Positions 1,840-15,368 of a stretch of DNA of 51,261 bases are shown piece by piece. How positions within the stretch are numbered: the stretch's first letter is position 1; each line of letters opens with the position of its first letter. The notes under the pieces are model-generated. The model had not been told where the DNA came from and made no database searches. It saw only the letters and a list, made by a program, of their open reading frames with translations. This DNA comes from Azotosporobacter soli (GTDB lineage Bacteria; Bacillota; Negativicutes; SG130), in NCBI RefSeq assembly GCF_030542965.1, contig NZ_JAUAOA010000025.1, positions 1 to 51,261 of the forward strand, read 5' to 3'. Position numbers and translations under genes: made by a program.

Positions 1840-2355
1840 GTGACGGATGATGTGTTGAAAAGTGATTTGATTCTTAAACAAATCGAACAGAGCGGCTTTG
1901 CGGAAAAGGTCGTCGAAGTGGATGAGGAAACGATGGGTCTGTTGATTGTCCAATTGGGAGAGCGATTATTTGCTCTCCCGGGCAGTGAAGCGCGGGAAAT
2001 TATGCCATTTAGCGCAAGCACATGGATTCCGGGGGCAACAGCGATATTGCCCGGGGTAATGAATATTCGGGGCGATGTGGCTGCCGTGATTGACGTCAAG
2101 AAAGTCCTAACGGTGCCTGAAGCCGGAAGCGGCGCAGGCTGTTTTTTTGTATTGCTGCGTCACGGAGACGGTCGCAGCGGACTTCTCGTGGATGATATCG
2201 TGGATGTTATCGAACTGTCTGTCGCTGAAAATATGCCGCTTCTCTCCAGTTTAGATGTCGGCTGGCAGCGTTTTGCCGCCAGCCAGTTTGATTATCAGGG
2301 ACGGATCGTTACGGTGTTAAAGGTAGAACAATTGATTGAAGCGGTACGGCTTTGA
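1840..2355 (+). CDS. cheW: CheW-like coupling protein
   Basis: A 171-residue CheW-domain protein that would link receptors to the CheA encoded at 6839. After about 35 variable residues comes the CheW core: LLIVQLGERLFALPGSEAREIMP, then the GVMNIRGDVAAVIDVKK segment typical of the family, and a C-terminal GRIVTVLKVEQLI strand-helix. It starts with GTG behind AAGGAGG (1820-1826), a rather long spacing. It is the first gene of the chemosensory operon; a TG-extended TATAGT at 1793-1798 could be its promoter. The next gene overlaps its stop by one base, so translation is probably coupled. Confidence 0.85.
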   Translation: MTDDVLKSDLILKQIEQSGFAEKVVEVDEETMGLLIVQLGERLFALPGSEAREIMPFSASTWIPGATAILPGVMNIRGDVAAVIDVKKVLTVPEAGSGAGCFFVLLRHGDGRSGLLVDDIVDVIELSVAENMPLLSSLDVGWQRFAASQFDYQGRIVTVLKVEQLIEAVRL

Positions 2356-2744
2356 TGGATCAGGATGCTTTGGAGGTGCTGGTTTTCTTCAGCGGCGAAA
2401 GTTGTTACGGCATTGATATTGAACAAATCGCATATCTGGCGGATCCGTCACCAACGCAGGAGGCCGTTTCTTTTGAAGAATTGATGAGGTCAAATGTTTC
2501 GCAGCAAGAGGGGCGACGAAAACGGATCAGCGTTAAGGGCCATGAAGAGATACTGGTTTTGATTCCTGAACCGGAGACGGTGAGCAATCTTTCGCTGCGC
2601 GATATCCGTCCGTTACCTGCGGTTTTTAAAGCGGCGCAGCCGCTGGGCGTCTGGGGCTTGGCGCAAAAGGAAGGTCGGTTAATCATATTGCTTGATCTGT
2701 ATAAAAATCTGCAGTTTAAAGAGCTTGTGCGGCAAGCGCAATGA
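2355..2744 (+). CDS. Second, divergent CheW-like protein
   Basis: A 129-residue protein with a reduced CheW-like fold: LEVLVFFSGESCYGIDIEQIAYL at the start, a central insert rich in charged residues, and WGLAQKEGRLIILLDLYKNL at the end. It lacks the clear IRG motif of the first CheW. Its ATG shares a base with the TGA of the preceding gene, and its own stop overlaps an ATG of the receptor frame, so it belongs to the same transcript. A second coupling protein next to one receptor and one CheA suggests a dedicated array. The CheW assignment rests on the end segments and context. Confidence 0.65.
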   Translation: MDQDALEVLVFFSGESCYGIDIEQIAYLADPSPTQEAVSFEELMRSNVSQQEGRRKRISVKGHEEILVLIPEPETVSNLSLRDIRPLPAVFKAAQPLGVWGLAQKEGRLIILLDLYKNLQFKELVRQAQ

Positions 2745-2764
2745 AAAAAAGCAAGGAGGATATG

Positions 2765-4294
2765 ATGAATAGCAGTTTAAAAGTTAAAATCATCGGGATC
2801 ATGGCATTATTTATGTGTTGTCTGGTCGCGCTATTATCGTATATTTCGATTTCCGCGACGCTGCAGCGAGGCGAAACCCGTCTGCATGAATATCAGGAAA
2901 CGCTGTACAAACAAAAGACGGATAATATGAAGAATTTGGTGGAGGCCGTTTCTAGCACGACAAACTCGATGTCGGAGGCGGAGGCGAAGAATTTTGTGCG
3001 TAACGCTCGTTACGGCAGTGACGGTTATTTTTTGGTGATTAATAGCAGCGGCAATGTCGTGGTTCATATCGACCCTCTGTTGGAAGGCAAAGAGCTGTCG
3101 GCTGTGCGTGATGCCAATAATAACGCGTTTTTGTTGAAATTGCTTGAGCAGTGCAGAGATAAAGGCGAAGGCAATGTCGAATACATGTGGATGAAGCCTG
3201 GCGCGGCAAAAGCCGAAGCGAAATCGTCCTACGGCAAGTCCATCGGCAAGTGGAATTGGATTGTTATCACAGGAATTTACCTGGATGATGTGGAGGCGGC
3301 TGTTCAGAAAGAAGAGAATTTGATTCACCAGGAAATTTGGAGTACGGTACAGCGATATTTGTTGATTTCGGCGTTGGCGCTATTGCTGATTGTGGCGCTG
3401 GCCACTTTCTTTATCAACCGCTACATCACTCAGCCGCTGGCGGGTGCGATTACCAAGGTGAACAATTATGCGGCGAAGATGGAAGATACGGTGACAACCC
3501 AAGCCAGTTTCTCGTTGGAACTCTCTTCTTCGGTCAGTGAAATATCCGCGACGATGGAAGAATTCTCTTCTTCGGCCGTTCTAATCGCCAATCACAGTCA
3601 GGGTGTAGCCGACAGTGCAGCACAGACGCTGCAGAGGACGCGGGAAGGCGTCGCAGAGGTAGAAGGCCTGATGGGAAAAATGAAAGAAATATACAATGAT
3701 AACCAGGTGAACATTCAGGAAATTGTTGCTTTGGGGCATAAGTCGAACGAAGTTAGCAAGATCATGGAGTTCATCAATAATATTGCGAGCCAGACACGCT
3801 TGATCGCGTTCAATGCAGCCTTGGAAGCGGCCAGCGCGGGAGAAGCGGGGAAACGTTTTGGCGTGGTTGCTCTTGAAATCCGCCGTCTGGCCGATAGCGT
3901 GATGGAATCGACTAAGGAAATTGAGGGGAAGATTACGGAAATTGTCGCAGCCGTGAGTCGCCAAGTTGTTGCTTCGGAAAAAAACACGAAGGGAATTGAA
4001 GAGGGCATGGCGTATTCGGAGCGAACTGTGTCGATTATTTATGACATTGAGAATGCTGCCGATCAGACGACGGATGCCGTCAGCCAGATCGTCCTGTCGA
4101 TCCAACAACAACAGACTGCAGGAGAACAAGTGCTGACCGCGCTGCGTCAAATCAAACAAGGGACAAATGAAAATACGACAATGATCCAACAAACCAAGAC
4201 GATCAGCAAGGAATTGAGCGATTTGGCGGAAGAGCTGGAACAAGTTGTCAAGCGTGGCAGTGAAACTGCGGCAAGAAAAGGAACCGACGCCTAG
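2765..4294 (+). CDS. Methyl-accepting chemoreceptor with sCache domain and atypical tip
   Basis: A 509-residue receptor: membrane helix near residues 5-27, a periplasmic single-Cache domain (YGSDGYFLVINSSGNVVVH, later WNWIVITGIYLDDVE), second membrane helix around 200-223, then a long cytoplasmic coiled coil. The hairpin tip reads IASQTRLIAFNAALEAASAG, not the usual [17 protein letters not shown] found in the receptors at 13677 and 48611. I chose ATG 2765 because AAGGAGGA (2753-2760) sits just before it; ATG 2741 would put this site inside the gene. The ligand is unknown; sCache domains often bind small organic acids. It is embedded between cheW and cheB and is probably the only dedicated receptor of this system. 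Confidence 0.88.
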   Translation: MNSSLKVKIIGIMALFMCCLVALLSYISISATLQRGETRLHEYQETLYKQKTDNMKNLVEAVSSTTNSMSEAEAKNFVRNARYGSDGYFLVINSSGNVVVHIDPLLEGKELSAVRDANNNAFLLKLLEQCRDKGEGNVEYMWMKPGAAKAEAKSSYGKSIGKWNWIVITGIYLDDVEAAVQKEENLIHQEIWSTVQRYLLISALALLLIVALATFFINRYITQPLAGAITKVNNYAAKMEDTVTTQASFSLELSSSVSEISATMEEFSSSAVLIANHSQGVADSAAQTLQRTREGVAEVEGLMGKMKEIYNDNQVNIQEIVALGHKSNEVSKIMEFINNIASQTRLIAFNAALEAASAGEAGKRFGVVALEIRRLADSVMESTKEIEGKITEIVAAVSRQVVASEKNTKGIEEGMAYSERTVSIIYDIENAADQTTDAVSQIVLSIQQQQTAGEQVLTALRQIKQGTNENTTMIQQTKTISKELSDLAEELEQVVKRGSETAARKGTDA

Positions 4295-4305: not shown

Positions 4306-5325
4306 ATGAATGAGGAAAAACCATTTGTCAGGGTTTTAATCGTCGGCGAACTTGTGATTGCAGAAAGTGAAATGGCGGCAGCCGGCATTCGGGTGATTGG
4401 CGTGACCGGCAGTGGGAAAGAGGGCGTGAATCTGACGCGTCGTTTGTGCCCGGATGTAATCATGATTGTGGTTGAAACGCCGCAAAGTGATGATTTGGAA
4501 GCGATTGAAGTCATCATGAAAAATCAGCCTACGCCGATCCTGCTGCTTGTCGGCTGCCTCGACGAACGTCTCGCGCGTGAAGCAGTAAGCCGGGGCGCGC
4601 TCGAAGTGTTTCAAAAAGAAGAATTCGATTCGCGCTGCCGCCGGCAATTGCTGCATAAGCTGCGCGTATTGGCGGGGGTGAAGGTAATCCGCCACATCAG
4701 CGGCAGGGAAGAAGGACGCGCCAATAGCGATGCGATGTCTGCCAAAATGAAAAAAGAGCATTTGAAGGCGGTGATTATCGCCTCTTCGCTGGGCGGCGCG
4801 GCAATCCTGGAAATAATATTATCGCAATTGGCGGCCGATTTTCCGGCACCGATTGTGGTGGCACAACACATTTCGGAAGGGTTTTCCGAAGAACTGGCGG
4901 ATTGGCTGGATCATAAGACGTCGCTGACGGTACGCGTCGCGACGCACGGTGCGCGGCTTTTGCCTGGACTCGTTTTGATCGCACCGCCGGAATATGACGT
5001 CAGGATTGCAGCGCAGGGAACGGTAGCGTTGTCGCCTTGCCTACCCGGCGTAATTTATCATCCCTGTTGCGACAGTCTGCTCTCTTCGGCGGCGGACGTA
5101 TATCAAGAAGCTGTGGTTGGCGTCATCCTCACTGGAATGGGGGCGGACGGCGTGGAAGGAATCGCGGCGATTAAACGGGCAGGCGGGTTTACGATGGCTC
5201 AAGATGAAGAGTCCTCTTTGATTTATAATATGCCGCGTCTGGCAATTGAACGCGGTTTGATCGATCTTGTCGTCTCCGCAGATGCGATTGCTGCGGAGAT
5301 TAAGAAGGCGGTTTTCGTATGCTGA
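4306..5325 (+). CDS. cheB: CheB-type methylesterase with non-phosphorylatable receiver
   Basis: A 339-residue protein with CheB architecture. The C-terminal methylesterase domain is intact: Ser in IASSLGGA, His in VAQHIS and Asp in GVILTGMGADG form the expected triad for removing receptor methyl groups. The N-terminal receiver is degenerate: the segment that should read VIVMDIEMP is VIMIVVETP, so Val55 replaces the phosphoacceptor Asp, and the acidic pair near the N-terminus is replaced by GE. Phosphorylation by CheA is therefore unlikely and the esterase may be constitutive or protein-controlled. AGGAGG at 4293-4298 supports ATG 4306. cheR starts inside its last codons. Confidence 0.9.
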   Translation: MNEEKPFVRVLIVGELVIAESEMAAAGIRVIGVTGSGKEGVNLTRRLCPDVIMIVVETPQSDDLEAIEVIMKNQPTPILLLVGCLDERLAREAVSRGALEVFQKEEFDSRCRRQLLHKLRVLAGVKVIRHISGREEGRANSDAMSAKMKKEHLKAVIIASSLGGAAILEIILSQLAADFPAPIVVAQHISEGFSEELADWLDHKTSLTVRVATHGARLLPGLVLIAPPEYDVRIAAQGTVALSPCLPGVIYHPCCDSLLSSAADVYQEAVVGVILTGMGADGVEGIAAIKRAGGFTMAQDEESSLIYNMPRLAIERGLIDLVVSADAIAAEIKKAVFVC

Positions 5326-6803
5326 ATCAAGAAACGATGTTGCAACGTCTGGATTTGGAGCGGATAGGACAATGCATCAATCAGCGTTATGGTTTGGAGT
5401 TTTGTCACCGACAGCTGGACTTGTTGGGAGAAGCGGTAGAGAAACGCTGCAAAGCGAACGGCTCTTGTACTCTGGCACAGTATCAAGATTTACTGCAGCG
5501 GGAAGAGGAGTCGCTGCAGTTAATCCAATTGTTGGCAGTGCACGAGACTTACTTTTTTCGTGAGGCGGCTCAATTCGACGTCATGCGCCAACACGTGATG
5601 CAGCGAATAGCGCAAGAGAAGGAGCGCCCGTTGCTTCGCTTTTTAAGTGCGGGTTGCTCGACCGGCGAAGAAGCGTACTCGATCGCGATGGCGCTTCTTG
5701 ACATAGCGGGGGTGGGAGCTGAATGGGACTTTGAAGTGATTGGCGTCGATGTGGATCCGGCAGCGATACGAAAAGCGCAGCTTGGAAATTACGGCCCCTA
5801 TTCCTTCCGCGGCTGTTCGATGGCGCTACGCAGTCGTTATTTCAAACCGCTCGGTTCGGATCGTTTTGTAATCAATGAAACGATAAAAGAAAAAGTGCGT
5901 TTTGAAGTGTTGAACTTATTTGAACCTGACTATCCGGAGTGGCTAAAAAAAATTGACGTTGTCTTTTATCGCAATGTATCCATTTATTTTTCAAAACTCC
6001 AACGTGCGCAACTCTTCAACCGTTTATCGGGATTGCTTGCTTCTGCCGGATGCCTGTTTGTCAGTTGTACGGAAACGCTGTATCATGATACGCAACAGAT
6101 GGAACTGGTAAACAGCGGTGACGTTTTTTATTATCGAAAGAAGGATGCAACGAAACTTTCCCCGGCAAAGGAAAAAGAGGCTCTCAGGGCGAGGCCCTGT
6201 CGGACGCGGCCAAAAAGGCCGGAAGAAAGTGTAAAATGGATCAGCAAGCCGTTATTGCCGGAGCGGCATGAAGCGGTGAAAAGGATAGAACGATTGCACG
6301 CCGATCCACTGGCGACGGTGCTTGAAATGCTGAAGGACAAGCAATATGACGAGGCCATTGCTTCTTTAGATCGGTGGATTTCCTGTGAACCGTTATGCAC
6401 AAAGGCGTATACGCTAAAAGCCAATGTGCTGTTGAATCGGCAGTGTATAGAAGAAGCCGAGGAACTCTGTCATACGGTGCTTGTGATGGATGTTTTTTGT
6501 CTGGAAGCCTATTTGCTATTGGGCATGGCGGCGAAAATCGCCGGAAAGTGCGAAGAGGCCATACAACGATTTAAAAAAGCGGTTTATGTATCGCCGGAGT
6601 GCTGGCTGGCGCATTTTTTTCTCGCGCAGCTGTATCAACTACGCAAGGAGGATGCGTATGCGAGACGTGAATATCAAGTGGTGATGCGTATTTTGGAGCA
6701 GGGCGGTTTTGCAGAACATGGTTTGAGTTTTTTTCTGCTGGCGGTTCAATTGGACGATCTGATTCGCTTGTGTCGGCATCAGATTGATGGTCTAAGAGAG
6801 TAG
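5319..6803 (+). CDS. cheR: CheR methyltransferase fused to TPR domain
   Basis: A 494-residue protein. Residues 1-270 form a CheR SAM-dependent glutamate methyltransferase: all-helical N-domain, ETYFFRE, SAM-binding SAGCSTGEEAYSIAM and FYRNVSIYF (usually CRNVLIYF). A basic linker of about 30 residues leads to a C-terminal region with tetratricopeptide repeats (for example AYLLLGMAAKIAGKCEEAIQRFKKAV). CheR-TPR fusions are typical of chemosensory systems that do not drive flagella, such as Wsp and Frz-like systems. It overlaps cheB by seven bases, so the methylation enzymes are probably made in fixed ratio. Confidence 0.9.
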   Translation: MLNQETMLQRLDLERIGQCINQRYGLEFCHRQLDLLGEAVEKRCKANGSCTLAQYQDLLQREEESLQLIQLLAVHETYFFREAAQFDVMRQHVMQRIAQEKERPLLRFLSAGCSTGEEAYSIAMALLDIAGVGAEWDFEVIGVDVDPAAIRKAQLGNYGPYSFRGCSMALRSRYFKPLGSDRFVINETIKEKVRFEVLNLFEPDYPEWLKKIDVVFYRNVSIYFSKLQRAQLFNRLSGLLASAGCLFVSCTETLYHDTQQMELVNSGDVFYYRKKDATKLSPAKEKEALRARPCRTRPKRPEESVKWISKPLLPERHEAVKRIERLHADPLATVLEMLKDKQYDEAIASLDRWISCEPLCTKAYTLKANVLLNRQCIEEAEELCHTVLVMDVFCLEAYLLLGMAAKIAGKCEEAIQRFKKAVYVSPECWLAHFFLAQLYQLRKEDAYARREYQVVMRILEQGGFAEHGLSFFLLAVQLDDLIRLCRHQIDGLRE

Positions 6804-6838
6804 GTTGCTGCTCTTCGAATAAGGAAGGGGATACGCTT

Positions 6839-9004
6839 TTGGATGTGAAGGTTTTTTTAACGCGCTTTGCTGTTGAGTCGGCTAAACATTGCGATCAGAT
6901 GGAAAAAGAATTGCTTTCATTAGAGAAAGACGGCGTTTCCCGACAGAAATTCGATTCGATTTTTCGCATTGCCCACACGATAAAAGGCGCATCCAGGATG
7001 CTGAAATTGACGCCGATTTCTGAAGTGGCGCATAGGATAGAAGATGTGTTGGAAGAATTGCGCAGCGAGCAACGCTCCTTGTCACAGACGGTGATGGACC
7101 AGTTGCTGTTGGCCGTCGATGGAATCCGGGAAATGATCGCCAATGTTGCAGAGGGAAAGGAACTGCCGGAAACCTTGCCTCCGGCCTGTGAGGCGCTGAA
7201 AACCTGGTTGGCTGCAGAGCGCGAGTCGGATCGGATGCCTCCTCTTACTGCAGCTGTTTTCCAAGGAGAACGCATGACAGAGCAAGAGGAAGCAAGTACG
7301 GAGAGCGTGCAGACAACGGATTTCGTTCAAATCCGTTCGGACCAATTAGATGAATTAATCCAATTAATGGGCGAGCTGGTTTCTTTTCAGTATCGGAAAA
7401 AAACGCAACTGGATAAAATGCGGGAACTCTTGCAACTTTCGACGGCTTCTTTATCGTTACTGGAAGGCAAGGGGAGAGCGCTTGCGCAAGAAGGAAAAGA
7501 TGCTGTAACCGCTATCCAGCGTCAGGTTCGGCAGGTACATGATTTGCTGCGGGATGACATGGTCGTCGAAAATCTTTTGACCTGCGATTTACAGGAACGT
7601 ACGTTAAAGATTCGCATGCTGCCTATTTCTACGCTGTTTGGCAGGATTAACCGTGGCGTCCGTGATTTTGCACGGGCAAATGGAAAAGAAGTCGAATTTT
7701 ACGGTGAAGGCGGCGACACGGAACTGGATCGCAAAATCATTGAACAGTTGGGGGACTGCTTGATCCATATGATTCGCAATGCCATTGACCATGGAATCGA
7801 AACTTCTGAGGAACGGATCAGGCAGGGGAAAAATCCCCGTGGTCAGATCCGTTTAACGGCTTTTTATGATGGCGGCGGCGTTACCTTGGTCATTCATGAT
7901 GATGGTGCCGGGATCAATTTGCCGGAGGTCAAAGCGACGGCGCTGAAGAAGGATTTAATCAGCGAAGCGGCGGCGGATACGATGACGGAAATGGAATTGC
8001 TGGATTTGCTTTTTCTGCCCGGATTCAGTACGAGTCCGATTATTACGGATATATCGGGGCGCGGCGTCGGCATGAACGTTGTCAAAGAGACGATTGTCGA
8101 AACTTTGAAAGGCTCTGTCCGGATTCAAAGCGTCCAGGGCAAAGGAACCTCTTTTTTTCTTAAGGTGCCGATTACGCTGGCGTTGTCGAGGATGCTGATC
8201 GTGGCGACGGGGAAACATCGTTTTGCACTTCCGTCATATTCGGTGCAAGAAGTGCTGACTGTGGCGAAGGATCAGATCATTGAGGTCATTAATAAGCGTG
8301 CTGTGCGTGTTCGCGAACAAATTCTTCCGTTGGAGGAACTGCAGACGCTGCTCGATTATCCGCAACCTGTGCCGCGTGAAGGAGCGGAAATGGTGGTGGT
8401 CTTGCTGTCTTCAGGCCCGGATCGCTTAGGGCTGATCGTTGATTCTGTGGTCAGCGAAGCCGATATGGTGATAAAATCGCTGCCGGAATCGATGGAGAAA
8501 TGGCCATTGCTTGCCGGATTTACTGTAGGCGGACAGGATGAGGTGATCAGCGTGTTAAGCGTCGCGGCTTTGCTGCAGCAAAGCAGAAAAAGTAAAAATG
8601 CACAGGTAGGGACGGTTGGCGGCGACGTTGCCTTACAAGGCAAAAAAATCCTGGTCGTTGATGATTCTGGCAATACGCGCGAGATTGTAAAAAGCATTCT
8701 GGAATCTTATGGATATCAGGTTGACTTGGCGGAGGATGGGCTGGAGGCGCTGGAAAAAACCGGCCGAAAATTGTATGATGCGGTGATTACTGACGTTGAA
8801 ATGCCGCAACTGGATGGCTTTAGTCTGACCGCTCATTTGCGGCAGGATGAGCGATATCGCCAAACTCCGGTGATCATCGTGACGTCGCGGGAAAAGCCGG
8901 AAGACAAACGGCGCGGGATTCAAGTCGGCGCCAATGCCTATATCGTCAAGGGCGCCTTCGATCAGAACAATCTGATTGAAACGCTGCAAAACTTGATTGG
9001 CTAA
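6839..9004 (+). CDS. cheA: CheA-REC hybrid histidine kinase
   Basis: A 721-residue hybrid kinase. The N-terminal HPt (P1) carries His46 in RIAHTIKGASRML. No P2 docking domain is visible. The dimerisation and ATPase domains follow, with HMIRNAIDHGIE, DDGAGIN and GRGVGMNVV; then a CheW-like regulatory domain and a C-terminal receiver with ILVVDDSGN, the phosphoacceptor in ITDVEMPQLDG and Lys in YIVKG. The attached receiver means phosphate can move within the protein, as in phosphorelays. TTG 6839 lies 9 bases after AGGAAGGGG; GTG 6845 is a possible alternative. It is the kinase core of the operon and likely feeds the receiver, DHp and NtrC-type proteins downstream. Confidence 0.92.
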   Translation: MDVKVFLTRFAVESAKHCDQMEKELLSLEKDGVSRQKFDSIFRIAHTIKGASRMLKLTPISEVAHRIEDVLEELRSEQRSLSQTVMDQLLLAVDGIREMIANVAEGKELPETLPPACEALKTWLAAERESDRMPPLTAAVFQGERMTEQEEASTESVQTTDFVQIRSDQLDELIQLMGELVSFQYRKKTQLDKMRELLQLSTASLSLLEGKGRALAQEGKDAVTAIQRQVRQVHDLLRDDMVVENLLTCDLQERTLKIRMLPISTLFGRINRGVRDFARANGKEVEFYGEGGDTELDRKIIEQLGDCLIHMIRNAIDHGIETSEERIRQGKNPRGQIRLTAFYDGGGVTLVIHDDGAGINLPEVKATALKKDLISEAAADTMTEMELLDLLFLPGFSTSPIITDISGRGVGMNVVKETIVETLKGSVRIQSVQGKGTSFFLKVPITLALSRMLIVATGKHRFALPSYSVQEVLTVAKDQIIEVINKRAVRVREQILPLEELQTLLDYPQPVPREGAEMVVVLLSSGPDRLGLIVDSVVSEADMVIKSLPESMEKWPLLAGFTVGGQDEVISVLSVAALLQQSRKSKNAQVGTVGGDVALQGKKILVVDDSGNTREIVKSILESYGYQVDLAEDGLEALEKTGRKLYDAVITDVEMPQLDGFSLTAHLRQDERYRQTPVIIVTSREKPEDKRRGIQVGANAYIVKGAFDQNNLIETLQNLIG

Positions 9005-9030: not shown

Positions 9031-9372
9031 ATGAAGATATTATTGATTGAAGATGATGAGTTGATGCGCGATATGATCACGATGGTTCTTGCCATGGAAG
9101 GGCACGAAGTGAGCGGCGCGGCGACGGGCGAAGTTGCACGCGCGCTATTCAACGCAGGCGGCTATGCTGCGGTGATTTCCGATATGTATTTGCCGGATAC
9201 CGATGGCTTTGAACTGTTTGCCGAACTGAAGGCGGTGCAACCGGAGTTGCTTTTTTTGCTGCTGAGCGGCGAAACAGATGAAGCGGTGCTGCGCAAAGCG
9301 GCCGCGCTCGGAATTCCTTATATTGAAAAAGATGAGAACTTTGCGGAACGGATAGCGGCGGCGTTGAAATAA
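9031..9372 (+). CDS. Stand-alone receiver (CheY-like) protein
   Basis: A 113-residue single receiver domain. The acidic pair is in LLIEDDEL, the phosphoacceptor is Asp51 in VISDMYLPDTDG, the conserved Ser is in LLLSGETD and the Lys in YIEKDE. It has no output domain, so it would act by protein contact or as an intermediate in phosphotransfer. It sits 26 bases after the hybrid cheA and directly before the lone DHp domain, a position that suits a step in a relay. A flagellar-switch CheY role is less likely because no flagellar gene is nearby, but it cannot be excluded. Confidence 0.88.
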   Translation: MKILLIEDDELMRDMITMVLAMEGHEVSGAATGEVARALFNAGGYAAVISDMYLPDTDGFELFAELKAVQPELLFLLLSGETDEAVLRKAAALGIPYIEKDENFAERIAAALK

Positions 9373-9408
9373 AGCGCGGCAGCTAAGTGGATAAAGGGAG
9401 CTGGAACG

Positions 9409-9609
9409 ATGGAAGAAGAGAAGATGTCGGCAAAAATGTTTCACGATTTGAATCAGCCGCTTAATTCGATCAAGATGATTTCGGGAGGAATCTTATATAT
9501 GCTGAACCAAGGCAAAAAGTTGCCGGAAGAAGAATTGGCCCAGTGCATGAAGGAAATAGCGGCGCAGACGGATCGCATCGCCGCGATGCTGGTTCGTCTG
9601 AAAGAATAA
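9409..9609 (+). CDS. Lone histidine-kinase DHp (HisKA) domain, putative phosphotransferase
   Basis: A 66-residue protein that matches only the dimerisation/histidine-phosphorylation hairpin of NtrB-type kinases. His12 is in the H-box MFHDLNQPLNSIKM, and the second helix ends in QTDRIAAMLVRLKE, exactly where the ATPase domain would normally begin. No ATPase domain follows: only 45 bases separate it from the next gene. It has its own AAAGGGAG site (9393-9400) and ATG. By analogy with Spo0B-like proteins it could dimerise into a four-helix bundle and pass phosphate between receivers, here between CheA-REC or the lone receiver and the sigma-54 activator. Function is inferred from domain and position; a remnant of a broken kinase is the alternative. 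Confidence 0.72.
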   Translation: MEEEKMSAKMFHDLNQPLNSIKMISGGILYMLNQGKKLPEEELAQCMKEIAAQTDRIAAMLVRLKE

Positions 9610-9654: not shown

Positions 9655-11130
9655 ATGAAGATATTGCTTGTAGATGATGAGCAGCATAGTTGTCAGGCTA
9701 TGCTATGGTTCTTAAAACATCAAAATCATGAGGTGACCGAATGCGCCAGCGGCGAAGAAGCGTTGACGAAGTTTGCCGAAGGGCAGTATCCGTTGGTGTT
9801 GTCGGATATCCAAATGCCCGGCATGTCGGGTGTTGATCTGGCGGCTGCCATCAAAAAGCGACCGGAGAGCTGGCAAACCGATGTGGTTTTGTTTACCGGG
9901 CATGCTGACATCAACGCGGTGATTGCCGCGCTGCGGGTCGGCGTCTATGATTATTTGAAAAAGCCGGTCAATCCTGAAGAATTGGCTTCGGTTATTGAGC
10001 GCGTCGCCGAACATCAAGCGTTGTTGCGGGAAAACAAGCGTTTGACCGAACGCTTTCAGGATGAGGTGCACGCTGCGACTGCAGAGACGCGCCAGGAACT
10101 GGTTCAGATGAAGCAGTTGGTTGCCGAATCGACGATTGGCGCCATCGGCTTATTTTCCGATTGCATGCGCAAAATTGCAAAGCAGGCCGAGCAATTGCAC
10201 GCGGATCGCTCGATTCCGGTTTTGATTGAAGGCGAAACCGGAACCGGCAAAGAAGTGGTTGCAAAGCTAATCCATTACGGCAGCCGTTTTGACCAACTGA
10301 GCGCGGCCTCGTTTGTTGACATCAATTGTGCGGCGCTGGCGCCGACTTTGTTTGAGAGCGAACTGTTCGGCTATGAGGCGGGTTCGTTTACCGGCAGCAT
10401 GGCAAGAGGCGCGAAAGGAAAATTCGATCTGGCTTACGGAGGAACGCTACTGCTCGATGAAATCGGCGAGATTCCGCTGGAACTGCAGGGGAAATTGCTG
10501 CGCGTCCTGCAGGAAAAAGAGTTTTACCGGGTTGGCGGATTGAAAAAGATCAAAACCGATATCCGTTCGATCTGCGCTACGAATATTCCGCTGGCCAAAC
10601 GTGTCGAAGAAGGCACATTTCGCAAAGATTTGTATTTTCGCCTCAAAGTGGCTCATATTGTTATACCGCCGCTGCGCGAACGAAAAGAGGAAATTTTGCC
10701 GATGGCCAAATTGTTCATGCAAAAATTTGCACAGCAGAAGAAGAAAAAGTTTACACAGTTTGATAGTGAAGCAGTACGGATGCTGGAAACATATGACTGG
10801 CCGGGGAATATCAGAGAACTGCAAAATGTGATCGAATATGCAGTGTTTGCCTATGATGCAGAAACTTTGCAAGCGGAGCACATCAGCGGTTTGCTGCGCC
10901 AGAGAGTAACGTCATTGCCGGAAGCGGCGTCACAGGACAACCTCTTGGCGATACCGATTCCGGCGAATGGCTATTCATTGAAACAGTATACGGCAGATGT
11001 TATTCTAAAAGTGTTAGCGGCGCATGAGGGAAATCAGTCGGCGGCGGCGAATTATTTAGGCATTTCGCGCCGGGCGTTATCGTACCGCTTAGAAGAAATG
11101 CGCAAGAAAAAAGAAGACGGCAAAATGTGA
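9655..11130 (+). CDS. NtrC-family sigma-54-dependent response regulator
   Basis: A 491-residue regulator: receiver with LLVDDEQ, Asp51 in VLSDIQMPG and Lys in YLKKPVNP; a coiled linker around 118-150; an AAA+ domain with Walker A GETGTGKE, Walker B TLLLDEIGE, and the sigma-54-contacting loop reading GSFTGS where GAFTGA is usual; and a C-terminal Fis-type helix-turn-helix (NQSAAANYLGISRRALSYRL). It would open promoters bound by RNA polymerase-sigma-54. A consensus sigma-54 promoter lies only 160 bases downstream of its stop, before the GGDEF gene. It is the last gene of the chemosensory operon and the likely output of the relay. Confidence 0.93.
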   Translation: MKILLVDDEQHSCQAMLWFLKHQNHEVTECASGEEALTKFAEGQYPLVLSDIQMPGMSGVDLAAAIKKRPESWQTDVVLFTGHADINAVIAALRVGVYDYLKKPVNPEELASVIERVAEHQALLRENKRLTERFQDEVHAATAETRQELVQMKQLVAESTIGAIGLFSDCMRKIAKQAEQLHADRSIPVLIEGETGTGKEVVAKLIHYGSRFDQLSAASFVDINCAALAPTLFESELFGYEAGSFTGSMARGAKGKFDLAYGGTLLLDEIGEIPLELQGKLLRVLQEKEFYRVGGLKKIKTDIRSICATNIPLAKRVEEGTFRKDLYFRLKVAHIVIPPLRERKEEILPMAKLFMQKFAQQKKKKFTQFDSEAVRMLETYDWPGNIRELQNVIEYAVFAYDAETLQAEHISGLLRQRVTSLPEAASQDNLLAIPIPANGYSLKQYTADVILKVLAAHEGNQSAAANYLGISRRALSYRLEEMRKKKEDGKM

Positions 11131-11132
11131 CA

Positions 11133-11190
11133 AAAACTTCTCACAAAAACTTCCCAACCGGGAAGTTTTTGTGAGAAGTTTTCTTTTTTT
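11133..11190 (+). terminator. Terminator with perfect 23-bp stem
   Basis: Two perfectly complementary 23-base arms (11133-11155 and 11160-11182) enclose the loop AACC and are followed by CTTTTTTT. It starts right after the stop of the sigma-54 activator and is an evident intrinsic terminator for the chemosensory operon. Each arm holds two related ACTTC units. The centre lies about 135 bases upstream of the sigma-54 promoter, which is also a usual enhancer distance, so a second role as activator binding site is possible. Confidence 0.85.
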
Positions 11191-11289: not shown

Positions 11290-11307
11290 TTGGCATGAAT
11301 CTTGCAA
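11290..11307 (+). promoter_or_regulatory. Sigma-54 (-24/-12) promoter
   Basis: The sequence TTGGCATGAATCTTGCAA fits the sigma-54 consensus TGGCAYRN4TTGCW at every position, with the GG and GC elements ten bases apart. Transcription would start near 11317 and give a leader of about 60 bases before the GGDEF start at 11380. The adjacent upstream gene encodes a sigma-54 activator, which strengthens the call. Confidence 0.85.
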
Positions 11308-11379: not shown

Positions 11380-12336
11380 GTGTTGACAGGAAATATGCTG
11401 GCTGCGGATTTAGATACATTGAAAAAGTATTATGACGTTGCAAGAATCGTCGAACCGGCGCTGGGGTGTGCGGACGGTTCACGTATATATGCGAATGAGC
11501 CGATAAAACAGCAAGGAGAAGAAGTTTGCCGTCATTTCGGCCATAAAGGGCGACAGTGCAATTCATGTCTTTGTTTGCAAGCGATAGAAAACAATGAGAC
11601 ATTCGTGAAAACCGAAGTATTGGACGGCAACATTTATATGGTTACAGCGATGCCGTTGAAGAAAGAAGGCCGCATGGTGGCGCTGGAATTGATCAAATTG
11701 ATCAGTGAACGGACGATCGGGCTTTTGACCGAGTTGCCGCAGGAGAATACGCGTTTGTATCACTCCATTGCCAAATTGCATGACTGGGCGACCAAGGATG
11801 CGCTGACCGATATTTACAATCGCCGCTTTATTGACGAAAGATTGCCTAAGGCGATGAAAAAAGCCAAACAACAGTGCGAGCCGTTTTCCATTGTGATGGC
11901 TGACATCGACTGGTTCAAATTGATCAATGACCGATATGGACACGGGGTCGGGGATGAAATATTAAAGAGCTTTGCCGCAACGATTGAAAATAATATCCGA
12001 AGCGACAACGGCGACTGGGTCGCGCGTTACGGCGGGGAAGAATTTTTGATTTTTTTGGATAACTGTTCAGATAAGGGCGCCTATAAGGTTACGGAAAAGC
12101 TGCGGCGCATCATCGAGCAGACGCAATTATTTACCAAAGCAGGCGTGCTGCACATTACCGCCAGCTTTGGCATCCATACTTTCGGCAAGCGGGATGAAAC
12201 GTTGCAGCAGTTAATGGAACGGGCGGATCGAAACCTTTATCAGGCCAAGCAATCGGGACGCAATTGCACGATAGCCGAATATGTTCCGACACGAAGTGAA
12301 GTTTCCTGCCGTGAAAACTGCAAATATGCAAAATGA
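11380..12336 (+). CDS. GGDEF diguanylate cyclase with Cys-rich N-terminal sensor
   Basis: A 318-residue protein. Residues 1-130 form a PocR/PAS-like sensory region with a cysteine group, CRHFGHKGRQCNSCLCLQA, that could hold a metal or Fe-S centre (inference). Residues about 145-305 are a GGDEF domain with the active motif RYGGEEFLIF, so it should make c-di-GMP from two GTP. The inhibitory RxxD site just before it reads DNGD, so product inhibition through the I-site is probably absent. GTG 11380 follows AAGGAG at 11367-11372. It sits behind the sigma-54 promoter and ahead of an EAL-HDOD gene. Confidence 0.88.
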   Translation: MLTGNMLAADLDTLKKYYDVARIVEPALGCADGSRIYANEPIKQQGEEVCRHFGHKGRQCNSCLCLQAIENNETFVKTEVLDGNIYMVTAMPLKKEGRMVALELIKLISERTIGLLTELPQENTRLYHSIAKLHDWATKDALTDIYNRRFIDERLPKAMKKAKQQCEPFSIVMADIDWFKLINDRYGHGVGDEILKSFAATIENNIRSDNGDWVARYGGEEFLIFLDNCSDKGAYKVTEKLRRIIEQTQLFTKAGVLHITASFGIHTFGKRDETLQQLMERADRNLYQAKQSGRNCTIAEYVPTRSEVSCRENCKYAK

Positions 12337-12374: not shown

Positions 12375-13580
12375 GTGAAAGTTTTTGTTGCCCGTCAACC
12401 AATTTTTGAACAAGGCTTCCGCGTTTTTGCCTATGAGATGCTGTTTCGTCAAAGCGAGGTCAATGCATATAATGCGGCGGACGGTGAACAGGCAACCGCC
12501 AGCGTTATCACCAACAGCCTTTGGGTCATGGGACTCGATTATCTTACCAACGGAAAAAGAATATTTATTAATGTGACGGAAAGAATGCTGAAAGAGAATG
12601 CATTGAGTCTGCTGCCGCCGGATCAGGTTGTGCTCGAAATACTGGAAACGGTCGAACCGGATGCGGAAGTAATTGAAAGCTGTCGTAAATTAAAGCGCCA
12701 GGGATTTATGTTGGTGCTGGACGATTTTGTCTTTCAGCCTCGTTTTCAGCCTTTAGTTGAAATTGCCGATATTATTAAGGTCGATTTTTTAACGACGGGG
12801 CTGCTCGAACAAGAGCGGCTGATCCGGCGCTGTGAACATTTACCGGTGCGATTTTTAGCGGAAAAAGTGGAAACGAATGAACAATATGAGCAGGCGCTTC
12901 GCTTGGGCTATGACTATTTTCAAGGTTATTTTTTCAGCAAACCGGTGATTTTGTCGGCGAAAGACATCCCGGCGAATAAGCTCAGCATAGTTAAAGTGTT
13001 ACAGGAAATTCGGCGGCCGGAATTGCAACTGGATAAGCTGCGCAACGCGATTCAAAAAGATGTGTCGTTGGCGTATAAGCTGCTTGCTTTTATCAACTCG
13101 GCCCATTTCGGTTTTAAAAGCCAGATCGGTTCGATCCAGCAGGCGTTAGCCTTGCTCGGTAAAAAAGAAATTGTCAAGTGGATGTCGTTGGTCGCGCTGA
13201 AAGAAATTGCCGAGGGTAAAAGCGATGAATTGTTGATGAACTCGCTGGTGCGCGGGCGGCTGTGCGAACTTGTGGCGGTCGAAATCGGCCTGGTGCGGCA
13301 TCGGGATGAAGCCTTCACGATGGGCTTATTTTCCTTGGTGGATGCGCTCTTGAATAAACCGTTGGCGGACATTTTAAAACTGCTGCCGCTGCCGGAAGCC
13401 GTCCAAGAGGCGCTCTTGGGACGGGAAAATGCATTCTTTCGTTTGTTGGAGCTGGCTCGGGCTTGCGAACGCGGCGATTGGCCGATAATTCAATCTTACG
13501 CGAAGCGAATGGATATCGAATTGGCTAAGTTGTGGGAATTGGTGCTGCTGTCGATCAAATGGAGCAAAGAAAATGAATAA
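12375..13580 (+). CDS. EAL-HDOD domain signalling protein
   Basis: A 401-residue protein of the YuxH/CdgJ type. The N-terminal half is an EAL-like domain: YEMLFR replaces EALLR, FINVTE, LEILETVEP, LDDFVF (usually DDFG), IIKVDF, LAEKVET and YFQGYFFSKP can all be aligned. Several metal-binding residues remain but the loop glycine after DDF is lost, so phosphodiesterase activity is uncertain and related proteins are usually inactive. The C-terminal half is an HDOD domain (LAYKLLAFINSAHFG...). GTG 12375 follows AAGGAG. It is 38 bases after the GGDEF gene and almost certainly in the same sigma-54 transcript. Confidence 0.88.
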   Translation: MKVFVARQPIFEQGFRVFAYEMLFRQSEVNAYNAADGEQATASVITNSLWVMGLDYLTNGKRIFINVTERMLKENALSLLPPDQVVLEILETVEPDAEVIESCRKLKRQGFMLVLDDFVFQPRFQPLVEIADIIKVDFLTTGLLEQERLIRRCEHLPVRFLAEKVETNEQYEQALRLGYDYFQGYFFSKPVILSAKDIPANKLSIVKVLQEIRRPELQLDKLRNAIQKDVSLAYKLLAFINSAHFGFKSQIGSIQQALALLGKKEIVKWMSLVALKEIAEGKSDELLMNSLVRGRLCELVAVEIGLVRHRDEAFTMGLFSLVDALLNKPLADILKLLPLPEAVQEALLGRENAFFRLLELARACERGDWPIIQSYAKRMDIELAKLWELVLLSIKWSKENE

Positions 13581-13676: not shown

Positions 13677-15368
13677 ATGAAGCAACGTATGCCGATTGGC
13701 GCTCAATTAGGTATTCTGATGGGAATCGCTCTGACCTTGATGGTCGTATTGCTGAGCGTGATCCTCTATGAATTCAAAGAAACCAGCGCGGCTTATCAAA
13801 ACATGCTCTCCGGCGCGGTGCAGCGTACGATGGCCCTGCAGGAGGCGCAGGATGATTTCCATGAAGGGATCAGCGAACTGCGTGGCTATATCGCGTACAG
13901 CGATGCCAAATATGCGGCGGATACAATGACCTTGTTCAAGCAAAGCGACAACGCGGTAAAAGAATTCAGCGCCGCAGTGCCGACAGCCGCAACGAGAGCG
14001 TTGGGCGAAAAACTGCATGAAGCAATGACTTCATACATGGCGGATATTCAAGAAGTGCTGCGTCTGAAACAGGCCAATGACCCGGCTTATCTGACGGTCT
14101 TGGCTGGCGCGCGCGGCAAGACGGAGCTTGTCAACAAAGCGTTCGAAGAAGTGATGGCTTCGCAGGATGCGACATTAAAGCAACGGGTCAAAGAACTCAA
14201 TGATCGACAGGCGATGCTGTTTACTACCGTTATTGTCACAAGTTTGGCGGGCATTGCGCTGATTATCGGCTTGCTGATCTGGTACAGCCGTCAACTGGCG
14301 CGCCGAATCGGCAATTTGCGCGGCGATATCGTCGCGCTGAGCGAACTCGATTTATCGCGGCCAGATGTATACCCCAGCCGCAACGATGAGATTGGCGATA
14401 TGGCGGAAGCAATGATTAAAATGAAACAGGCACTGCAGGAAATTGTCCGTCTGCTCCGTCGCAACGCTGAAACGTTGGCGGCTTCCAGCGAAGAACTGTC
14501 CTCTGCGGTGGAAGAACAGTTGCAGGTGTCGGAAAATATCGCCAGAACGATAACCGATGTGGCTGGCGGAGCCGATCGGAACACGAATCACATCGGCGAA
14601 ATTAGCGGCGTAATTCAGGAAGTCGGCGCACGGGCCGAAGAGATAAGCGCCAGCGCGGTTCAAGTCAATCATGTCACGCAGGATGCGGTCGGCGATGCGG
14701 ATCAGGGGATGAAACTGATTCATCGCCTGGTGGCGCAAAATGAAACAATCGGGACGTCGATGGTCGATATTACCAGAGTGTCTGAAGCGCTGGTCAAGGG
14801 TTCCGATGACATTCAAGACATTGTAATCACAATCCGAAACATTGCGGGGCAGACCAATCTCTTGGCGCTTAATGCGGCGATTGAAGCAGCCAGAGCTGGA
14901 GAAGCCGGACGCGGTTTTGCCGTAGTGGCGGAAGAAGTTCGCAAACTGGCCGAGCAAAGCGCCGGAGCTACCAACCATATTGAAGAGATCATCAGTAAAA
15001 TGACGACCGATATTCAGTTTTCCGTCGATGCAGTCGCGAAAGCCAACGGCGAAGTCGTTGCGGGAAAAACGGCAACCGATGAAACGCAGCAGGGATTCCA
15101 GGCGATTCTTGGCAAACTGGGAAAAGTAAAAGAAGGCATTGAACAGATCGGCCGTGCAGTCGAGGAGACGGCACACGGCATGCAATCGGTGGTCAGCAAT
15201 GTGCAAAATATCGGTTCAGTGGCGGAAGAAACAAGCGTCAGTGCGCAGACGGTAGCAGCCGCGGCCGAAGAACAAAGCGCGAGTTTCCATGAAGTAAGTT
15301 CGAATTCTGATTCGTTGGCGCAAATGGCAACCGAACTGAACGGAATTACGGCGCGCTTTAAAATGTAA
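13677..15368 (+). CDS. Methyl-accepting chemotaxis protein, canonical tip
   Basis: A 563-residue receptor: first membrane helix at about 9-30, a helical periplasmic domain of four-helix-bundle type to about residue 180, second membrane helix around 183-204, a HAMP domain, and a signalling coiled coil with the canonical tip [20 protein letters not shown]. The C-terminus has [14 protein letters not shown] methylation-type repeats. TAGGAGGAA precedes ATG 13677. Unlike the receptor at 2765 it should couple to the cell's main chemotaxis kinase. It stands alone between the c-di-GMP genes and a strong terminator; the ligand is unknown. Confidence 0.92.

Follow-up and report, generated by a model that had tools for sequence, protein, structure and literature searches.

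The 66-residue protein encoded at positions 9409..9609 on the forward strand of the window (the whole stretch of 51,261 nucleotides from Azotosporobacter soli that was analyzed) is a free-standing DHp (HisKA) hairpin with a phospho-acceptor at His12 and no ATPase domain. As the initial annotation had noted, its gene lies between two receiver-bearing genes, namely a single-domain receiver (REC; 9031..9372) and an NtrC-like activator (9655..11130). The protein is probably a DHp-only histidine phosphotransferase, a relic of an NtrC-partnered HisKA kinase, that would serve in a relay from CheA to REC, then to DHp and on to the NtrC-like activator. It had been described initially as a minimal Spo0B-type phosphotransferase linking CheA to the activator. 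A Spo0B-like role is indeed the best explanation for a conserved lone DHp with an invariant His in a locus that runs from CheA to an NtrC-type gene, but the second domain of Spo0B is missing.

The translated ORF reads MEEEKMSAKMFHDLNQPLNSIKMISGGILYMLNQGKKLPEEELAQCMKEIAAQTDRIAAMLVRLKE. Its two helices span residues 2-33 and 40-65, its H-box is MFHDLNQPLNSIK, and the protein stops at residue 66, where helix 2 ends and the linker to an ATPase domain would start. The gene has its own purine-rich ribosome-binding site (AAAGGGAG, 9393..9400, forward strand), which was read from the sequence 8 nucleotides 5' of the ATG. Residues 4-62 match the Pfam HisKA family (PF00512) with an E value of 8e-6 and 26.2 bits against a curated cut-off of 26.9 bits. 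A Pfam scan gave no HATPase match in the protein, and the Hpt profile (PF01627) did not match it either. Against a profile made exclusively from full-length kinases of other loci the frame scores 75.4 bits, and thus its HisKA homology is firm. With that profile, no other frame of the window exceeds 7.2 bits, and 20 dinucleotide shuffles gave at most 14.1 bits.

AlphaFold2 predicts a single confident hairpin (pLDDT 91.7). Over 63 residues, the model superposes on the DHp of HK853 from T. maritima at 1.0 A, and the range for the HK853 and EnvZ-chimera DHps together is 1.0-1.1 A. Foldseek E values for the model are weak because the hairpin is so short. A profile search of the PDB with DHp recovered FixL and other DHps, and a PDB search with the single sequence recovered designed coiled coils only. 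NCBIfam assigned no name to the protein. The H-box and helices had been called NtrB-type; the H-box and both helices are present, but HDLNQPL belongs to the FixL/TtrS class of H-boxes and is not NtrB's own. The DHp gene is in frame with the upstream receiver gene, with one TAA and 12 open codons between them. Expression of a read-through REC-DHp fusion from the window was considered and rejected, given the good ribosome site and the different frame found in two relatives. The option that 9409-9609 is a chance ORF was likewise rejected.

Further members were sought in a genome-collection search and in 380 genomes of the class Negativicutes. Seven additional DHp-only members were found, all with E values below 1e-33, in Sporomusa silvacetica, S. 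ovata, Sporomusa sp. KB1, S. acidovorans and the genomes G117 (CTSoil_075), G036 and G317. The next matches (E value of 1e-19 or weaker) are full-length kinases, except for a broken copy in G117, and a phylum-wide sample of 398 genomes contained no other DHp-only member. A short match in G463 was rejected as a member, as it has no H-box and appears to be a remnant. The eight genomes span four families, and in every one DHp occupies the equivalent place, after a CheA with a receiver and a lone REC and before the NtrC-like activator. HATPase is absent from every DHp-only or REC-DHp protein scanned. The initial annotation had proposed to check relatives for conservation of the frame and selection on it, and had named a lack of conservation of His12 as a refutation. 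Conservation and selection are both evident: all 27 of the 27 DHps compared keep His12, and pairwise dN/dS values for DHp range from 0.03 to 0.28 wherever they can be estimated, which indicates that the protein is under purifying selection.

All genes of the surrounding cluster are on the forward strand. It opens with a CheW-like coupling protein (1840..2355; 28% identity to the CheW domain of CheA), followed near its head by a chemoreceptor with sCache_2 and MCPsignal domains (2741..4294), a CheB methylesterase (4306..5325), a CheR methyltransferase with TPR repeats (5319..6803) and CheA (6839..9004). REC, DHp and the activator come next, and then a GGDEF diguanylate cyclase (11380..12336), an EAL-like/HDOD protein of the YuxH type (12375..13580) and a second chemoreceptor of the 4HB_MCP type (13677..15368). 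The presence of a CheA with Hpt, HATPase and CheW domains together with MCP, CheR and CheB genes identifies this as a Che-type system.

CheA combines an Hpt domain (P1, with His46), the kinase core, the CheW domain and a C-terminal receiver, and it has no P2 domain. Its catalytic motifs are intact, and the P1 His and kinase motifs are also intact in all eight DHp-only loci. REC has 113 residues with Asp51 and the other catalytic residues intact, and the acidic pair, Asp51, Ser/Thr and Lys are kept in eight of eight loci. It is the presumed partner of DHp and its presumed donor. The activator has the REC-AAA-Fis HTH architecture, and Asp51 of its receiver is the presumed phosphoryl acceptor. 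Its sigma-54 interaction AAA domain, its Fis-type HTH and its receiver, along with the single sigma-54 gene (rpoN) in the genome, mark it as NtrC-type; it scores below the NCBIfam equivalog cut-offs, of which AtoC is the nearest.

The CheB proteins of these loci show a separate trend. The CheB receiver in the window (4306-4650) is decayed, with neither the acidic DD pair nor the phospho-Asp that relatives keep. In S. acidovorans, CheB has lost its entire receiver, and the G036 locus gave no CheB match. DHp-only CheA systems seem to be losing CheB control.

The presumed output of the activator is a -24/-12 promoter-like box, TGGCATGAATCTTGCA (11291..11306, forward strand), located 73 nucleotides 5' of the GGDEF gene, the first gene behind it. 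The box is 3' of a terminator-like inverted repeat with a run of T nucleotides (11131..11190, forward strand; read from the sequence), which separates the activator gene from the GGDEF unit. Each of the eight DHp-only loci has a -24/-12 sequence, TGGCATGcTTTTTGCA, in the corresponding intergenic spacer that follows the activator gene, and 12 of the 23 full-kinase loci have one like it no more than 600 bases away. In most related loci, the equivalent box precedes the 4HB_MCP chemoreceptor gene. A scan of the entire window gave no excess of sigma-54 sites (31 found and 30 expected). Since sites of such quality occur at chance frequency across the window, the evidence for this promoter is its conserved place, which became apparent only by comparing orthologous intergenic regions.

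Three further copies of the same variant of the box are present in the genome (G000:C3:96151-96166, 99337-99352 and 342949-342964), and these are possible additional targets of the activator. In two related loci, an inverted repeat, AAAAAGCATGC...GCATGCTTTTT, overlaps the conserved box (L067, about 6780-6830; L033, about 11560-11600), and this repeat is absent from the window's copy of the region. S. ovata carries a stand-alone second copy of the activator receiver behind a sigma-54 box (L065, 10585-10995), which is 76% identical to the receiver of the window's activator.

From this gene set, we infer a series of phosphotransfer steps, their direction and the dimerization of DHp. Two copies of DHp would form the usual four-helix bundle. 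The chemoreceptor array would control CheA, which would place phosphate on His46 of its Hpt domain and pass it to Asp51 of REC, either directly or through its own receiver. Phosphorylated REC would donate to His12 of DHp, and DHp to Asp51 of the activator, which would then drive the promoter at 11291-11306 ahead of the presumed output unit of GGDEF, HDOD and chemoreceptor genes. The initial annotation had DHp link CheA to the activator. REC, located just upstream and fused to DHp in Sporomusa, is more likely to be the direct donor than CheA itself. CheA might phosphorylate the activator directly.

The origin of DHp can be traced to kinases that partner the same activator family. The closest full kinases directly adjoin an orthologue of the activator in 23 of the 23 loci used for the tree, and thus the pairing of DHp and activator predates the loss of the ATPase domain. 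These orthologues are 46-70% identical to the activator, and the full-length relatives that were scanned have a PAS, Cache or CHASE sensor along with HATPase. A single clade (90/90) holds all eight DHp-only systems in the activator tree, and it groups with four full-kinase systems (100/99) among the rest. Apparently, the kinase of an ordinary kinase-activator pair lost its sensor and ATPase domains once, when the CheA cluster took over. It had been argued at the outset that a full kinase at this place in relatives would reveal a truncation here. Full kinases do adjoin orthologous activators elsewhere, but eight genomes share the DHp-only form as a conserved lineage, and it is no local truncation.

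A comparison of alignment columns fits this reduction, in that residues close to the His or facing the receiver are mostly kept and kinase-only positions are altered. The residues H, Q+4, P+5, L+6, N+7, K+10, G+15 and I+38 are common to DHp-only proteins and full kinases, whereas A-5, G-3, E+1, I+2 and two Arg residues of helix 2 (R+44 and R+53) are constant or nearly so in full kinases and have changed or drifted in DHp-only proteins. At H+1, all eight DHp-only proteins have Asp, while 22 of the 23 full kinases have Glu. In CrdS, an E-to-D change at H+1 abolished autophosphorylation and left phosphatase activity intact (PMC3510030). Because one related full kinase (G009) also has Asp at H+1, and because this residue is common in HisKA proteins generally (PMC3510030), Asp at H+1 supports but does not prove the loss of a kinase role.

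The same residues bear on the main rival to the relay, a receiver-controlled phosphatase. Here DHp would dephosphorylate an activator that had been phosphorylated directly by CheA or by acetyl phosphate, and REC phosphorylated by CheA would alter this activity. We consider this alternative unlikely, though it has precedents. HisKA domains dephosphorylate their partner regulators with no need for the acidic residue at H+1 (PMC3510030), CheS3 of R. centenum is a hybrid kinase that CheA3 regulates by phosphorylating one of its receivers, with no relay through it (PMC3868531), and similar control has been proposed for NmpS (REC-HisKA-CA), which acts ahead of the NtrC-like NmpR (PMC11841059). However, the CheS3 and NmpS receivers control an intact kinase, of which there is none here, and the locus encodes no other kinase for the activator. 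His12 is also invariant, even though the phosphatase activity of HisKA domains does not strictly require the His. Position H+4 of DHp is Gln and the usual Thr or Asn is missing, which would count against a phosphatase, but full kinases have Gln there too and the position is therefore uninformative on this activity.

The link between REC and DHp is most evident in five Sporomusa-group genomes, where the two are fused in a protein of about 200 residues with DHp at the C terminus. DHp is a separate gene in the window, G117 and G036, and its frame relation to REC is different in each of the three. The fused and free forms together argue that REC is the partner of DHp. As the window and G036 fall outside the other DHp-only systems in the activator tree, separate genes are probably the older state. 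The fusion, and the tendency of DHp hairpins to dimerize, would also suit a scaffold or dimerization tag that dimerizes or localizes the receiver or activator and passes no phosphate. This function seems improbable to us, because the conserved surface is the H-box itself (HDLxQPLNSIK) rather than the dimer core alone, and because the His is lost only in the broken copy.

DHp and the activator are also lost together. A CheA orthologue is present in nine genomes of the class, eight of which have both DHp and the activator. The ninth, G312, keeps CheA and REC, and DHp, the activator and the promoter are all absent. A second locus in G117 lacks the activator and retains a DHp remnant with a His-to-Tyr change and a stop. 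Given the eight genomes with both genes and the two activator-less loci with no intact DHp, DHp appears to go with the activator, although the NtrC-less loci number just two and one of them is decaying altogether. The broken G117 copy occupies about 7100-7420 of a che locus that has no NtrC gene (L070), and its stop comes early.

These loci offer a second output. An Hpt-REC-REC-GGDEF protein is encoded between CheA and REC in G312 (L122, 7875-9914), in the second G117 locus (L070, 7421-9462) and in G036 (L033, 7449-9125), which carries this protein as well as DHp and the activator. The CheA cluster would feed this protein as an alternative output in G312 and the second G117 locus, and as an additional one in G036. 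Like the DHp route, this output begins with a His-phosphotransfer domain (Hpt match). A broader idea, on which we are evenly divided, is that REC is a hub with exchangeable His plug-ins, wherein the kinase-derived DHp would lead to sigma-54 transcription and Hpt-REC-REC-GGDEF to c-di-GMP. CheA, the receptors and REC would then replace, in trans, the sensor and ATPase of the dismantled kinase.

The phosphate might instead flow the other way, with DHp returning phosphate from the activator to REC and thereby serving adaptation. Spo0B-type transfer is reversible (PMC5898713), CheA has its own receiver, and the decay of CheB in several loci implies that adaptation may sit elsewhere. Nevertheless, the locus shows no other source of phosphate for the activator and DHp is present wherever the activator occurs, and we regard such a sink or reverse relay as very improbable. 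That DHp is a functionless decaying kinase fragment is scarcely credible, for while the protein is short and has full-length relatives in other genomes, its conservation in eight genomes of four families, low dN/dS values, invariant His and occurrence in both free and fused forms contradict this; a recent truncation or pseudogene was rejected on the same eight-genome conservation.

If the relay operates as proposed, nature would have dissected a histidine kinase here in an unusually clean way, keeping only the receiver-contacting hairpin and tying it to a chemotaxis-type array. The locus would provide a minimal two-helix phosphotransferase of 66 residues along with a natural REC-DHp fusion, and an example of a kinase taken apart and re-plugged. 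Culturable relatives would offer a side-by-side series of full kinase, free DHp, fused DHp and lost DHp. With it, one could try to tell the DHp residues used for autophosphorylation from those used in receiver contact, and study how relays evolve from two-component pairs.

Among openly licensed papers, we found no DHp-only protein in a chemosensory locus, and none of HisKA type that stands between CheA and an activator of the NtrC type, which is weak evidence for novelty. A close parallel is Spo0B of the Bacillus Spo0F-Spo0B-Spo0A relay. As is proposed for DHp, it is a kinase-derived dimeric hairpin phosphotransferase that acts between a single-domain receiver and a transcription regulator. 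The gene logic of REC, DHp and activator matches Spo0F-Spo0B-Spo0A, and the Sporomusa REC-DHp protein would equal a Spo0F-Spo0B fusion. Spo0B has a second, C-terminal ATPase-like domain. Without such a domain, DHp is not a member of the Spo0B family. Also, Spo0B is fed by KinA-type kinases, whereas DHp would be fed by a CheA array and is the hairpin alone, still recognizable as HisKA.

Two other phosphotransferases resemble DHp in part. ChpT, from the CckA-ChpT-CtrA relay of Caulobacter, is a dimeric DHp phosphotransferase without autokinase activity (PMC3433190). It differs from DHp in keeping a C-terminal ATPase-like domain (PMC3433190), in its hybrid kinase donor and in its target, CtrA. 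PhyT, from the general stress relay of Sphingomonas, is a degenerate kinase that was first taken for a phosphatase and passes phosphate from the single-domain receiver SdrG to the output regulator (PMC5898713). Unlike the lone DHp, it sits in the membrane, has a degenerate ATPase domain and carries an HRxxN motif. Since Spo0B, ChpT and PhyT all keep a degenerate ATPase-like domain and DHp has none, it belongs to none of these families. HmrB of Caulobacter is a small ATPase-less hairpin protein proposed to be a dimeric atypical phosphotransferase (PMC11481889), but it has 108 residues, two candidate His residues and no reported Foldseek likeness to known structures, whereas DHp is a plain HisKA domain.

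In Rhodospirillum centenum (CheA3-CheS3; PMC3868531) and Myxococcus (CheA3/CrdS-CrdA; PMC3510030), Che-like systems are known to target a HisKA kinase or an NtrC-like activator. CheS3 and CrdS are both complete HisKA kinases that include an ATPase domain, whereas here DHp alone is left. The FixL/TtrS-type kinases encoded beside NtrC-like regulators in Negativicutes differ in having PAS, Cache or CHASE sensors and HATPase, and in having no CheA in the loci read, but they share with DHp the same DHp family (H-E-I-N-Q-P-L) and an orthologous activator.
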